Source: Flavobacteriales bacterium (GTDB lineage Bacteria; Bacteroidota; Bacteroidia; Flavobacteriales_F; PHOS-HE28). Taken from it: a stretch of DNA of 38,126 nt. The position numbers and the translations under genes are program-made. Where the stretch lies: assembly GCA_020848295.1 (NCBI GenBank), contig JADLAI010000148.1:1-38126 (forward strand), read 5' to 3'. This document shows, one piece after another, positions 17,582 through 23,394 of this stretch (position 1 is its first letter; each line of letters begins with the position of its first letter). The notes beneath the pieces are model-generated. The model saw nothing but the letters and a program-made list of their open reading frames with translations. It made no database searches and was not told where the DNA came from.

Positions 17582-18583
17582 TCAGAATTTCGGGCAGGGC
17601 ACCACGCGATGGCGACGGGCCTTGGCCCGTCGGGGCCATTCGTAGATCAGGCTCAATTCATGAGCTCCGGCGCTTCGCATGGTGAGCTTGCTGATCGTGA
17701 TGTCATAGCTATAGGTGATCCGCAATTGCTTCTCGGTCTCGTAACCTGCCATGAGGATCATCGCCTCGCTGTTCCCATATCCCTTTTCGTAGGCCTTCAC
17801 GATGGGCAGACCGCGATACCATAGTCCACCGCTGATCCGATCATGCTCGATGTATCCGCCCAGATCGAGTTGGTCCCATTCACCTTGGGCCTTATAGTGC
17901 GCGGCCAGCGTGAGCTTGGTCCGGCTCCGGATCAGTTTGTGGCCATCCATCGGCAACTTGTAGCCCGCATGTACGGTGGTGCGCATGGGTACCACCGCGT
18001 CGCCATCCACCATCAAGCTGGTGTTCGGTCGGTTGATGTGGTTGAAGGAGGCCCCGGCCCAGAACCGTTCGCAGTAGTACAGCCCACCCGCCGCGATGTC
18101 GAGGTAGCTCGTATTGGGGACCATGGAGGCCTCCAGCGAGGTGGGCGCCATGTCACGGATCACCTGATCGGCGAAGATGTAACCGTCGGGTGCCACACTG
18201 CGCATGGTATAGCCCGGCCTGATCCCGAACCGGATGGCCTGTCGGCGGTTCAACCGGGCCTCGTAGCTGTAGCCCATGGCGATCGTGGTGAAGGAAAGGC
18301 CGTAGGTCCCTGCCTTATCGCGAAGTACGAAACCGCCCAGGCCGCTGTGTGCACCGGCGAAATTGTGATCGTACGCGAAGGAATAGGTCTCGAATCCGGG
18401 TTGCACACCAGGCCACTGGAGTCGATAGTTCAATGCCACACGGTCCTGGAACGTATTCCCCGTGAGGGCAGGGTTCAGGTACTGCGATGCGGCATAGAAC
18501 TGCGAGAATTGCGGGTCCTGCGCGTGGAGCACGCAAGGCAGCGCGAAAAGCAGGACCAGGTGCGTGCGTCGCCGTGCCGTCAT
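17582..18583 (-). CDS. PorP/SprF family type IX secretion membrane protein
   Basis: The product is 333 residues with a signal peptide (LVLLFALPCVLHAQ) and the family opening QDPQFSQFYAASQYLNPALTG, diagnostic of PorP/SprF. It is followed by many beta-strand segments such as VALNYRLQWPG, GLGGFVLRDKAGTYG and LNRRQAIRFGIRPGY. These proteins form outer-membrane barrels; SprF is needed for surface display of the adhesin SprB in gliding Flavobacterium, and similar genes often sit beside type B T9SS cargo. Here the start overlaps the stop of the giant SprB-repeat gene by four bases (ATGA), which strongly implies paired expression and a dedicated export or anchoring role. No core T9SS genes are in the window. 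Confidence 0.93.
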   Translation of the reverse strand: MTARRRTHLVLLFALPCVLHAQDPQFSQFYAASQYLNPALTGNTFQDRVALNYRLQWPGVQPGFETYSFAYDHNFAGAHSGLGGFVLRDKAGTYGLSFTTIAMGYSYEARLNRRQAIRFGIRPGYTMRSVAPDGYIFADQVIRDMAPTSLEASMVPNTSYLDIAAGGLYYCERFWAGASFNHINRPNTSLMVDGDAVVPMRTTVHAGYKLPMDGHKLIRSRTKLTLAAHYKAQGEWDQLDLGGYIEHDRISGGLWYRGLPIVKAYEKGYGNSEAMILMAGYETEKQLRITYSYDITISKLTMRSAGAHELSLIYEWPRRAKARRHRVVPCPKF

Positions 18584-21500
18584 CGGAACAAGGTCAGGTC
18601 GGTCAGCTTCTCCACGGTCTTACCATCCACGAAGCGGAACCATGTTTGTACCACATACACGTCCTGCGGGCTGATCTGACCACGGTAGTAGCCATCCCAG
18701 CCGATGTTCAGGTCGGTGCTCTCGAACACCAGTTCACCCCATCGGTTGAAGATGCGCATCCGGAAGTCCTTCACGAAGCGCACGAAGGGGTAGAACACAT
18801 CATTACTGAGGTCGCCAGTGACCCAGTTGGAGCCGCCACCGGCGCCTCCCTGTCCGCCGGGTCCGTTCGGGTCCGGTGTGAATGCCGTTGGAAGCACGAT
18901 GTCGTACACCGGGGTGATGGTCACCTCCTGCGTGGCGCTGTTCTCGCAGCCATGGAGATCGACCACCGTCAGTTCCACTGTGAACGTGCCGATCTCACTG
19001 AACGCGTAGGCCGGACTATTCACCTGGCTTGTACCGCCATCGCCGAAGACCCAGTCATAACCCACGATGGTCCCAGTGCTCTGGTCGGTGAATTCGACAA
19101 GCGGTGCATCGATGCTCGTGATGAGGGGCGAGGCGCTGAATGCTGCAGTGGGATGACCATAGGAATGGATCAGCCCTTGGTTGGCGCTGGTGCTGGTGCA
19201 TCCGAGCGGGGTGGTCACCGTGAGGTTCGCCTGGTAGGTCCCTTGTGGGTAAATGACCTGTGGCGCGCTCACGTGGCTGATCTGGCCATTGCCGAGGCTC
19301 CAGGTATACAGGACATTTCCGAGGTCCAACGCGGGGAACTGCACGGCCAGCGGGGCACATCCTTGGGCGATCACGGCCGGTAGTTGGAATGTCGGTGCGA
19401 TATCCAGTCGGAGGCTGATCGTCCGTTGCACGGTTGCCCCACAAGCGTCGGTCACGGTAACGGTCAGGTCCTGGTCCACATTGATCGGCATGGGGTAAGG
19501 GCCGGTGCCCGTGTAGCCCGTGGGCGACCAGGCGATGTTGTAGTTGCCCGGATATCCATTCACATTCACCCCCACCTGGGCCACCCCACCGATACAGGTC
19601 GTTGTATCCCCGTAGGTGGTGATCTCCGCCGCGTTCAGGTCAAGCACGGACACTGGAACCGGTGTGACCGGGCCCGCACAACCGTTCTGATCCACCACGG
19701 CGAGCAGGATCGTCTGCGAATTCTGGAAGGCCAGTTGAACGGCCGTGTCGTATCCCATCCCTCCCCAGTTGAAGAGGTAGCCGCCCGCACCACCAGTGGC
19801 CGTGGCGGAGAATACATTCGTTGTGTTCACACAGACGGTATCGGGTGTGTCCACCGTAACGACGATGGGGTCAGGTTGGGAAATGGTTCCCGTAGCTTGC
19901 GCCGTGCATCCATTCGCATCGGTGACCACCGCCGTGTAGTCACCCGCCACAAGGCCTGATGCGATGGAACCCGTGGTTCCATTATTCCATAGGATGGAAT
20001 ACGATGGGGTACCACCGGACAGCTGCACGTTCATTGCACCGTTGTTACCGCCGTAGCAGCTCACATCAGTCGTCCCCACCTGCGCCACGACCAAGGCTGA
20101 AGGCTCGGTGACCGCAGCGGTGAAAGTGGTGTCACAGCCCCACACATCGGTCACGGTCACACCGTAGGTGCCTGCCACAAGGCCGGTGGCGGTGGCCGAT
20201 TGTTGGGCGGCGGCATCATCCCATTGGTAGACCAGGCCGGGTATGGCCGGGGAAAAGGTGATCGATCCGTTCTGATCCCCAGCGCACAAGGCGTTACTCG
20301 GATCGAGTGCCGCCGAGAGGAAACTGTTCGAGAGGTTGATGTGTACCAGGTCGGTGTCCGGGGGGCAAGTGCTATTCCCAATGGTGACCAAGGCCAGATC
20401 GACCCCACCCGCAAGGACTTCCGCCGGATGGGGCTGATAGACCACCTGTAGCCCTGATCCGAGGATCGACCCGTTCCCACCGCTCCATTGCCCACTGGTC
20501 GCGTTCACCACGACGCCTTGAAGGGCGATCGGGTATTGACCCTGGCAGGCCACGAGGTCAGTACCGGCATCGGCCTGGTTCGGCAGTCCGGTAGCGACGA
20601 TCGTGCCGGACCCTACCGCAGGGGCACAGCCGTTGGCATCGCTCACCGAAACGGAATAGTCACCGGCTCCCGCTGTGATGCTGGCGGCGGTGGACCCGTT
20701 GCTCCATGCGTAGGTGTACGGTGCTGTACCACCGGACACTACCGCCTGGAGCAGGCCATTCCCAAGGCCTCCGCAGGTCTCATTCGTGCTGTTCATCGAT
20801 GCCACTGCAATGGCATCCGGCTCCGCGATGTTCACCTGAAGGGTGGTGTCGCAGCCATTGGTATCGACCACCGTGACGGTGTAGGCACCTGCCAGCAGGT
20901 TCGTCACGCTCTGACCCGTCTGGCCACCGGGCACCCAACCATAGGTGAAGTCGGTGGACGAGGTCACCACGGTGGCGGATCCTGTGGCAGTGCCATTGCA
21001 CAGCGCATCGGTATGCACGGCCTGAAGACCGATGAAGTGCTGCGGGATGGAGATCACCATCTGATCGCTGGCCTGTGGACAAACGTCGTTGCCGATCGTG
21101 ACCAGGGTCAATGTCACCGAACCGGCTGCGATATCACCAGGACCAAGCGTGTAATCGATGTTCGGGAATACGCCGTTCAAGACACCATCGCCGCCACTCC
21201 AGGCCCCGCTCGGTGCGTTCACCACGGTCTCATTCAGGTATACAGGCCCACTGTTCGGGCACGATACCAGGTCCGGGCCGGCCACAGCGGCATTGGGGAG
21301 GCCAGTGGGCGTGATCTGGCTCGAAGCGGTCGCCGGTCCACAGCCGTTCGCATCGGTCACTGTAACGGTATACATGCCCGACGTCGCGGTCAGTACAGGC
21401 CCTGTGTCCCCATTGCTCCATGTATAGTTGTAAGGTGTAGTGCCACCGCTGGCGGTCGCCGTGATCGTACCATCGGCATCACCCAGGCACGATTCCATCG

Positions 21501-23394
21501 TCGGGACCATGGAGACCATGCTCAAGACAGCAGGCTCGCCAATGTTCACGAGCATGGTGGTGTCGCAACCATCCTGGTCCTGGATGTACACTTCATAGGG
21601 GCCTGCTGCGAGCCCGGTCGCTGTGGCACCGGTCTGTGTGGCCGCATCGTTCCACTGGTAGGTGAATTCATTGCTGCCGGGGACGATGGAAGCCGAGCCG
21701 GTCGCTTCCCCAGCACATGTGGCATCGTTGGTCGTACTGGCGAAGCCGATGAAATTGTTGGAAAGGGTGAGATGAACCGTGTCCGTAGCCACCGGGCAAC
21801 CCGTATTGCCCGTCGAACTCAACACCAGATCGACCCCACCACTGGCGATCTCCGCTGGGGTGGGAACGTAGGTATTGGCTGGCCAGTTGCCCCCGACGTT
21901 CCCGGCACCGTTGCCCCAGGTACCACCGGTGGCGTTCGTTACGTTACCCTGTAAGGTAATGGGCGTGTCCCCGTTGCAGGCGACCAGGTCCGTGCCGGCA
22001 TCCGCCGTGGCCGGTTGTGGCCCATCACCGATCGTGGCGGGCAGATCGCCGGACTGGCATCCATTAGCATCCACGATGGAGACCGAGTAGGTCCCCGCAC
22101 CCGCTGTGATCATGCTCTCACCGCTGCCTGTGGACCATGTGTAGGTGAACGGGCCCGTGCCCGCCGTAACCTCCGCTGTGGCGGTGCCCGAACCGTCACC
22201 GGCACAGTTCTCATCGGTCACCGCGATGGTCGCCGCAAGGCCGGGCAGCACCTCGATGGAATAGACATAGGTCTGGAAAGCCGGTATGGGACAGGCGCCA
22301 TCGCTCACGTTCACGATGACGGGGAAGAACCCGGCGGAACCCGGTTGGGCCGTCCAACACAAGGTCGCGGTGATGGGATTGGCACCGGTCACCGTGAAGG
22401 TGGCACCAGGCAGGTTCTGTGTGGCATTGGTGAATGCGCTGAGCACATTGTTCGCATTGGGATCGGAGATCACCATATCGTAGCAGAAGTCCCCCGATTC
22501 GCACACTTGTACCGAGCGAGGGCCCGTGGCGAGCGCCTGGCCGGTAAGGTTGGTCACGGTACCGGTGGCCGCATCCGGTGGGATGTTGGCACAGGGATAG
22601 GCCACGAATTGCATGTCGCGCATGATCGTGCCGATCACATTCCCGTTCGCATCGTATTCGGTCACGAGCACGGCCACCACCCAGTTACCGGCGGTGTTCA
22701 GCGTGAAATTCATCAGGCCGGATACCGGATCCAGGGAGATCCCCGGGATCGGTTGCAATGGGGTATAAGGGGCTACGTAAGGGATAGGGGTGCCATCGAT
22801 CATCCGGGCACCGATCAACGAGTAGGAGAGTGAATCACCCTCCGTATCCACCGCCCCGTAGCTGTACGAGATGGGGTATCCAAGGCACACGTAAGGAATG
22901 GCCGTATTGGTGAATACGGGGGAATCGTTGCATGCGGCACCGGCGTTGTTCAGGGCGGATTCGATGTACATGTGCCGTGTACCCGGATTGGTCAGGTTCA
23001 CGATGGCATTGTTGCGATAGATGTTCGTCCAGCTGATCCTCCAGCTATCACAAGGCGGCAGGGTGATCGTACCGGTGTAGGTGTATTGTTCGATGCCGGG
23101 CAACGATCCACCGTTGCATGTACTGTTCGGCAGTTCAAGGTCACAGAGCTGCGAGAGTTCGGTGGCTCCGTTGTGCGTCACGGTAAGATTGCGATCACCA
23201 CAAGGGCTGGTGAGCACCAGGTTGTAGGTGGGATCCACCTCGATACCGGCACAATCGCGATACACGATCAATCGGACCCGGTATTGGTCCGGTCCGATGC
23301 ATTCCCAGTAGATCTCGCCACCGCTCATGTGCGTGGCCCATGTCGAGGTCCCGAAGCAGAGGAAGAACAGGACAGCGAAGAGGTGGCGGGCCAT
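18580..23394 (-). CDS. Giant T9SS surface protein with SprB repeats, PKD domains and CHU_C-type C terminus
   Basis: The product is 1604 residues. The ATG at 23394 starts the signal peptide (MARHLFAVLFFLCFGTSTWA). The N-terminal region HMSGGEIYWECIGPDQYR with VYRDCAG is a recurrent Bacteroidota surface-protein module. SprB-type repeats, each ending in a V-x-D-x-(N)GC motif, lie near residues 443, 608, 683, 846, 920, 1086 and 1163. Between them are Ig-like segments starting ADAGTDLVAC. Two PKD-like domains follow (about 1351-1400 and 1445-1481, with VFGDGGTS). The last 100 residues (IFNRWGELVFES, GWDGYYRGQ, LTDLTLFR) are the gliding-motility/type B T9SS sorting domain. It is probably a secreted adhesin, co-translated with the PorP/SprF-like partner. 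Confidence 0.93.
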   Translation of the reverse strand: MARHLFAVLFFLCFGTSTWATHMSGGEIYWECIGPDQYRVRLIVYRDCAGIEVDPTYNLVLTSPCGDRNLTVTHNGATELSQLCDLELPNSTCNGGSLPGIEQYTYTGTITLPPCDSWRISWTNIYRNNAIVNLTNPGTRHMYIESALNNAGAACNDSPVFTNTAIPYVCLGYPISYSYGAVDTEGDSLSYSLIGARMIDGTPIPYVAPYTPLQPIPGISLDPVSGLMNFTLNTAGNWVVAVLVTEYDANGNVIGTIMRDMQFVAYPCANIPPDAATGTVTNLTGQALATGPRSVQVCESGDFCYDMVISDPNANNVLSAFTNATQNLPGATFTVTGANPITATLCWTAQPGSAGFFPVIVNVSDGACPIPAFQTYVYSIEVLPGLAATIAVTDENCAGDGSGTATAEVTAGTGPFTYTWSTGSGESMITAGAGTYSVSIVDANGCQSGDLPATIGDGPQPATADAGTDLVACNGDTPITLQGNVTNATGGTWGNGAGNVGGNWPANTYVPTPAEIASGGVDLVLSSTGNTGCPVATDTVHLTLSNNFIGFASTTNDATCAGEATGSASIVPGSNEFTYQWNDAATQTGATATGLAAGPYEVYIQDQDGCDTTMLVNIGEPAVLSMVSMVPTMESCLGDADGTITATASGGTTPYNYTWSNGDTGPVLTATSGMYTVTVTDANGCGPATASSQITPTGLPNAAVAGPDLVSCPNSGPVYLNETVVNAPSGAWSGGDGVLNGVFPNIDYTLGPGDIAAGSVTLTLVTIGNDVCPQASDQMVISIPQHFIGLQAVHTDALCNGTATGSATVVTSSTDFTYGWVPGGQTGQSVTNLLAGAYTVTVVDTNGCDTTLQVNIAEPDAIAVASMNSTNETCGGLGNGLLQAVVSGGTAPYTYAWSNGSTAASITAGAGDYSVSVSDANGCAPAVGSGTIVATGLPNQADAGTDLVACQGQYPIALQGVVVNATSGQWSGGNGSILGSGLQVVYQPHPAEVLAGGVDLALVTIGNSTCPPDTDLVHINLSNSFLSAALDPSNALCAGDQNGSITFSPAIPGLVYQWDDAAAQQSATATGLVAGTYGVTVTDVWGCDTTFTAAVTEPSALVVAQVGTTDVSCYGGNNGAMNVQLSGGTPSYSILWNNGTTGSIASGLVAGDYTAVVTDANGCTAQATGTISQPDPIVVTVDTPDTVCVNTTNVFSATATGGAGGYLFNWGGMGYDTAVQLAFQNSQTILLAVVDQNGCAGPVTPVPVSVLDLNAAEITTYGDTTTCIGGVAQVGVNVNGYPGNYNIAWSPTGYTGTGPYPMPINVDQDLTVTVTDACGATVQRTISLRLDIAPTFQLPAVIAQGCAPLAVQFPALDLGNVLYTWSLGNGQISHVSAPQVIYPQGTYQANLTVTTPLGCTSTSANQGLIHSYGHPTAAFSASPLITSIDAPLVEFTDQSTGTIVGYDWVFGDGGTSQVNSPAYAFSEIGTFTVELTVVDLHGCENSATQEVTITPVYDIVLPTAFTPDPNGPGGQGGAGGGSNWVTGDLSNDVFYPFVRFVKDFRMRIFNRWGELVFESTDLNIGWDGYYRGQISPQDVYVVQTWFRFVDGKTVEKLTDLTLFR
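19880..22005 (-). repeat. Three tandem composite units of about 239 codons in the giant surface gene
   Basis: Equivalent codons of the A-x-AG-x-DLV-x-C motif start at 22005, 21288 and 20574, so the first two units are 717 and 714 bases. Each unit has an Ig-like segment (G-x-W-(S/G)-GG, then PAEIA-like, then GN-xx-CP) followed by two SprB repeats, and units one and two end near TGLPN. Cysteine positions are kept. The end of unit three is approximate. Confidence 0.8.

Follow-up and report, generated by a model that had tools for sequence, protein, structure and literature searches.

The gene at positions 18580 to 23394 (minus strand) of contig JADLAI010000148.1, which was analysed here as a window of 38,126 nucleotides, encodes a 1604-residue surface protein with a shaft built from three copies of a composite, three-domain unit. 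The window belongs to a Flavobacteriales bacterium metagenome-assembled genome (MAG) that is 66% complete. In its relatives the shaft is longer or shorter by whole units, and the next gene usually encodes a PorP/SprF-family outer-membrane carrier. We read the protein as a type B adhesin of the type IX secretion system (T9SS) that has its own carrier and whose shaft length changes by whole units, a reading to which we give a probability of about 0.65.

The composite repeat unit

An ungapped self-comparison of the protein (40-residue windows, score of at least 50) gave 200, 254 and 268 high-scoring windows at offsets of 238, 239 and 477 residues. The next best offset gave 26, offset 76, which is expected for plain SprB repetition, gave 17, and shuffled sequences gave a maximum of 3 (200 shuffles, 20 over offsets 20–899 and 180 over offsets 238, 239 and 477). 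The original prediction, made from the letters of the window, was of a composite unit repeated three times at a spacing of 238–239 codons, to be abandoned if self-comparison showed no off-diagonals near 239 residues; these are the strongest in the protein. The immunoglobulin (Ig)-like segments start exactly where it placed them, at 22005, 21288 and 20574 (residues 464, 703 and 941).

The predicted content of the unit, one Ig-like segment and two SprB repeats, was likewise recovered, but its phase had to be revised. Decoding the array with profiles made from the window's own repeats gave SprB-Ig-SprB (b-I-a) three times, followed by a final SprB repeat. Similarity at the unit offset rises from the leading b, that is, from the SprB repeat ahead of the first Ig segment, and the final SprB repeats of 12 proteins cluster apart on a repeat tree. 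The unit is therefore better described as b-I-a with a separate SprB cap, and Ig-SprB-SprB is ruled out as the natural phase on the same two grounds.

As had been predicted, the cysteines keep register: 18 of 18 do so in the three units, at offsets 9, 69, 96, 145–146, 171–172 and 220–222. Furthermore, when 31 two-unit stretches are aligned, none of the twelve cysteine columns varies. With six invariant, in-register cysteines per unit, there is one cysteine pair per domain, and each pair may form an intradomain disulfide. The features of the gene and its neighbour are as follows.

18580..23394, minus strand: adhesin-like T9SS type B surface protein, 1604 residues (SprB x7, PKD, CHU_C)
23335..23394, minus strand: likely Sec signal peptide, residues 1–20, judged from the sequence by eye
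22234..23334, minus strand: conserved N-terminal module, residues 21–387, no Pfam family
21520..22233, minus strand: composite unit 1, b-I-a, 238 residues; Ig segment 21748–22005
20806..21519, minus strand: composite unit 2, 238 residues; Ig segment 21031–21288
20089..20805, minus strand: composite unit 3, 239 residues; Ig segment 20317–20574
19864..20088, minus strand: terminal SprB cap repeat, a group of its own on the repeat tree
18916..19098, minus strand: best PKD_4 stretch, residues 1433–1493 (Pfam)
18655..18819, minus strand: CHU_C type B sorting domain, residues 1526–1580 (PF13585)
18580..18583, minus strand: ATGA, adhesin stop overlapping the carrier start
17582..18583, minus strand: PorP/SprF-family outer-membrane carrier, 333 residues (PF11751, TIGR03519)
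17594..17596, minus strand: codon for Cys330 of the carrier, within its invariant C-terminal PCPKF tail

The adhesin thus runs from an export-signal-like start through the N-terminal module and ten tandem Ig-like/SprB repeats to a PKD-bearing C-terminal part and the CHU_C domain. Pfam finds SprB repeats (PF13573) in seven stretches, with 154.7 bits, and the CHU_C domain with 28.3 bits, above its cut-off of 27. The protein had been announced as a giant T9SS surface protein; we keep the class, but its size is modest, as Ig-array proteins in the same genus reach 4347 to 5402 residues.

Length changes by whole units

A search of 58 related genomes, one per species, so that the variation seen is between species, gave 45 with a match at 1e-60 or better, and further Flavobacteriales MAGs were added from a named collection. 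Matches covering the repeat shaft well belong to the window's genus, whereas those outside it mostly cover one of the two ends, N-terminal module or C-terminal part. After exclusion of duplicates (L051, L056–L061), 29 complete relatives remained, 24 from same-genus genomes (the window included) and five from the named MAG collection. Fragments at contig ends and paralogues in which the N-terminal module was not detected (G008p, G018_4339, G024_4148) were kept apart from these.

All 29 complete relatives have the architecture (b-I-a)n plus cap. The number of units had been proposed as something to count in orthologues, and it ranges from one to four: three relatives have one unit, 15 have two, eight have three and three have four. 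The length from the N-terminal module to the end of the protein follows 861.7 + 239.0 residues per unit (r = 0.9998), and the remainder of 861.7 residues has a standard deviation (SD) of 3.6 and a range of 855 to 869. The units themselves average 238.6 residues (88 measured, SD 3.2). When partial sequences and paralogues are included, 42 of 42 rows decode as whole units plus at most one SprB repeat. Independent duplication of single domains was considered and rejected; no relative departs from whole units.

One orthologue (L155, genome G032) has 2173 residues, its open frame extending some 800 residues ahead of the N-terminal module; a fusion or a missed start may explain this.

Age and history of the units

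The units of the window are only 42–50% identical to each other, so the array is old. In a tree built from 88 units, most last units cluster together, and first units are spread over a few other clusters; the labels "first" and "last" (63 labelled tips) need three changes, and none of 1000 label shuffles needed fewer than 14. Separate trees of the b, I and a domains from the window and its four closest three-unit relatives recovered eight of nine domain-by-position clades, the a repeat of unit 1 being the one missed. Since the units group by position on these trees, the whole module was duplicated long ago, as the original prediction had suggested; repeat phylogenies that failed to group by position had been named as evidence against it, and the opposite was found.

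More recent copies occur in the middle of some arrays: units 2 and 3 are 85% identical at the amino acid level in G006 and 84% in G008. The middle units come and go. Within these recently duplicated units identity shifts gradually, and no sharp recombination breakpoint could be named.

Predicted structure of the shaft

A model of two units has a mean pLDDT (per-residue confidence) of 91 and a pTM (whole-model confidence) of 0.56, and all three domains of the unit are predicted to be Ig-like sandwiches. Of the suggestion that the unit folds as one rod segment, the sandwiches are supported by the model and rigidity of the rod is not borne out at this pTM. Among solved structures, fragments of GhpA take all the top places (Z 10.0 to 12.6), followed by titin at 9.2, and the modelled shaft has a GhpA-like fold. 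The N-terminal module is predicted to end in a cadherin-like sandwich (residues about 253–371). For residues 1–250 of that model, two structure searches that barely tested this part gave no clear solved relative.

The carrier next door and its tail

The downstream gene is a clear member of the carrier family (PF11751, 210.7 bits; TIGR03519, 220 bits against a cut-off of 90.55). Its sequence gave no match to solved chains at 0.01. The ATGA overlap between the two genes, from which a dedicated export pair had been proposed, is present at 18580–18583. The pairing is general. The downstream gene is visible in 38 of the 42 rows, and it is a PorP/SprF gene in 34 and another giant of the same kind in four; among the 34 copies next to a carrier, 20 have an ATGA at the stop. 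Tandem pairs of giant genes, with no carrier detected in between, were seen in L144 (G018), L150 (G024), L136 (G008) and L146 (G020); in two of them, L144 and L150, the second copy is followed by a carrier. On the upstream side, a potassium transporter (Kup) was considered as a functional partner and rejected: apart from the window, only the near relatives G002 and L050 were seen to have it next to the adhesin gene.

The carrier ends in PCPKF in all 31 carriers with a visible end. Because this tail has a single cysteine and lacks Cys-X-Cys, we do not file the carrier as SprF itself. A cysteine in the last eight residues is not a general property of the family: among the PF11751 carriers of four genomes (48 of 49 matches used, the sub-threshold own-genome match L020 being excluded), 18 have one and 30 do not. 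Three nearly complete genomes contribute five of these 18 each, and the incomplete genome of the window the other three. On a carrier tree built without the tails, the trait needs three changes, compared with at least ten in shuffles. In a class-wide search of 149 genomes, 131 matched at 1e-30, and among the 30 nearest carriers, which were fetched, the tail cysteine is present in 29, or 24 of the 25 from outside the genus. The carrier L294 ends in VVPCPKF, and the exception, L292, a close carrier from outside the genus, ends in VTVPKF. In three nearly complete genomes a PorP/SprF gene with a tail cysteine (L220, L221, L222) adjoins GldJ.

A proposed mechanism

We propose that the shaft keeps the N-terminal module at a distance from the cell. 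It would be a row of Ig-like sandwiches with one cysteine pair apiece, and its length changes solely by gain or loss of the whole b-I-a unit of 239 residues. The C-terminal type B signal would direct the protein through the SprA translocon to the PorP/SprF carrier encoded by the adjacent gene, and the carrier would remain bound to it as an anchor. By analogy with characterised systems, the neighbouring carrier thus probably both exports and holds the adhesin. The accessible part of one study reports that type B substrates use, depend on and stay on their cognate PorP/SprF carriers (PMC12618676), and PorP-like proteins are described as binding type B proteins at the surface (PMC9143113, in the part available). 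SprA scores above its cut-off in 39 of 39 genomes of the genus.

In a last step, the tail cysteine of the carrier would form a disulfide with GldK, and the adhesin would be carried along the gliding track. This speculation follows from Flavobacterium johnsoniae, where, according to the available text of PMC12635249, the Cys-X-Cys tail of SprF forms a disulfide with GldK, so that SprB follows the moving track. GldK was matched in the 39 genus genomes, above cut-off in 35, and has one invariant non-lipid cysteine in the 30 of 30 loci read, counted within genus sequences only. The same text reports that PorG of Porphyromonas gingivalis works with one cysteine. Covalent attachment to GldK is the least sure step, and we advance it tentatively, as something that may well prove wrong.

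Several observations weigh against the scheme. The TIGR04131 model of the type B signal scores 25.7 bits, below its cut-off of 35, and so disagrees with the CHU_C model. In the structural model the sandwiches are confident but the angles between domains are not. GldJ exceeds its curated cut-off in just 21 of 39 genomes and gave no clear match in the 66%-complete MAG of the window. Substituting either tail cysteine of SprF, which leaves one, is reported in PMC12635249 (part available) to have abolished gliding of F. johnsoniae on agar. Track attachment of the adhesin is thus a reasoned guess drawn by analogy, and the single cysteine makes it less likely that the F. johnsoniae arrangement is simply repeated here.

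Alternative explanations

The adhesin may instead be static, exported and anchored by its carrier with no link to a moving track, the tail cysteine serving carrier folding or another partner. That the cysteine is single and not twin fits this view, and Fjoh_3952 is an example of a type B substrate that does not move (PMC12618676, accessible part). Its invariance in the 31 genus carriers and its near-constancy in the closest carriers beyond the genus, in a family where the majority of the four-genome carriers do without it, speak the other way, and we think a static adhesin somewhat unlikely. Recombination offers a different account of the unit, in which unequal crossing-over adds or drops the same b-I-a block and the quantised length is a by-product without mechanical meaning. 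The near-identical neighbouring middle units of G008 and G006, with long stretches above 75% nucleotide identity, are what it would leave behind. However, the window's diverged units differ in length by no more than one residue, and what remains of the protein varies only between 855 and 869 residues across the 29 relatives; because of these two facts, a constraint on length itself is suggested. A pure by-product is a serious alternative, though on balance we doubt it.

With GhpA of Aureispira, a T9SS-secreted protein, as the best structural and profile match, the protein might also belong to a multimeric, grappling-hook-like appendage that catches prey or other cells. The comparison covers the shaft alone, GhpA is far longer, and a shared fold shows no function; we consider such an appendage improbable. 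Least credible of all is that the unit counts are artefacts of assembling metagenome bins. Most of the assemblies consist of many contigs, several being incomplete, but the near-closed G009, G003 and G024 give four, two and two units and obey the same length law. Collapse of reads is not expected either, because the units are mostly 42–60% identical.

The Ig-like domain and the N-terminal module elsewhere

A profile of the Ig segment matched 75 of the 149 class genomes. Among the matches listed outside the adhesin family, neighbouring Ig segments within one protein are mostly spaced by about 88 residues or roughly a multiple of it, and never by 239. The I domain also forms homopolymers, in type B giants of 4347 to 5402 residues (L262, L265 and L266 of G024, G009 and G003) with 41, 53 and 53 head-to-tail I domains at 84–91 residues. 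These share with the window's adhesin the I domain and a PorP/SprF carrier gene of their own next door, with carrier ends SSAF or SNAF, but their arrays decode as I only, without SprB partners.

The N-terminal module (22234–23334) is also present in further large proteins encoded by the same genome and, beyond it, in other families of the class. Pfam gave no convincing family for 32 copies of the I domain (best E 0.013, in one copy) or for 33 copies of the module (best E 0.012, in one copy). Both are thus common domains without a family in the Pfam copy used.

Implications

T9SS type B adhesins with PorP/SprF carriers are known, and so are stalks of variable length. New to us are a diverged three-domain unit as the only length quantum in a genus and a single-cysteine carrier tail found class-wide; a literature search, with most subscription journals outside it, gave no report of either the composite unit or such a tail. 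The natural series of one, two, three and four units on a nearly constant remainder would be useful for relating adhesin reach to gliding or attachment.

The carrier tail might also act as an address label, such that Bacteroidia carriers with a single-cysteine tail (PC-x-KF and relatives) lock their adhesins onto the GldK track and carriers with a PRYF tail hold theirs still. This is speculative, and we would not be surprised to see it fail. If true, the window's protein would be a motor-driven stalk with its reach set in steps of 239 residues, a length quantum constant to a few residues across the genus. The idea provides a testable way of telling from sequence which type B adhesins move with the track, as was asked in the 2025 carrier papers.

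Comparison with known systems

SprB and SprF of F. johnsoniae resemble the window's pair in having SprB-type repeats, a type B C-terminal signal, an SprF-family carrier and, by description, a cysteine in the carrier tail. The SprF-family carrier gene lies immediately downstream of SprB there as well. SprB has about 6500 residues. The window's protein differs in its composite Ig-SprB unit, its 1604 residues and the single carrier-tail cysteine in place of Cys-X-Cys.

The likeness to GhpA of Aureispira sp. CCB-QB1 (PDB 9flp, 9flw) lies in the chain of small Ig-like sandwiches. The shaft model matches it with Z 12.6 over 449 residues (root-mean-square deviation 6.8, 21% identity), and an alignment of two-unit shafts matches it as a profile with E 2.3e-103. 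Several of these profile matches start 249 to 251 residues apart (9flp_A 1786, 2035, 2284; 3203, 3452, 3703), and there are hints that GhpA too has a three-domain super-period. GhpA differs in its deposited sequence of 5898 residues and in forming a heptameric hook, and head and base lie beyond the comparison. The accessible part of PMC11205867 describes it as a T9SS-secreted heptameric hook.

Periscope Proteins such as SasG, Rib and Sgo0707 have stalks of variable length (PMC9704523, PMC8201768, both in the parts available), whose highly identical repeats differ from strain to strain (PMC9704523). The window's family shares with them a rod-like stalk and a variable number of repeats that should set its reach. 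Its units have diverged, those of the window well beyond the highly identical tandem repeats of Periscope Proteins, and the variation is seen between species.

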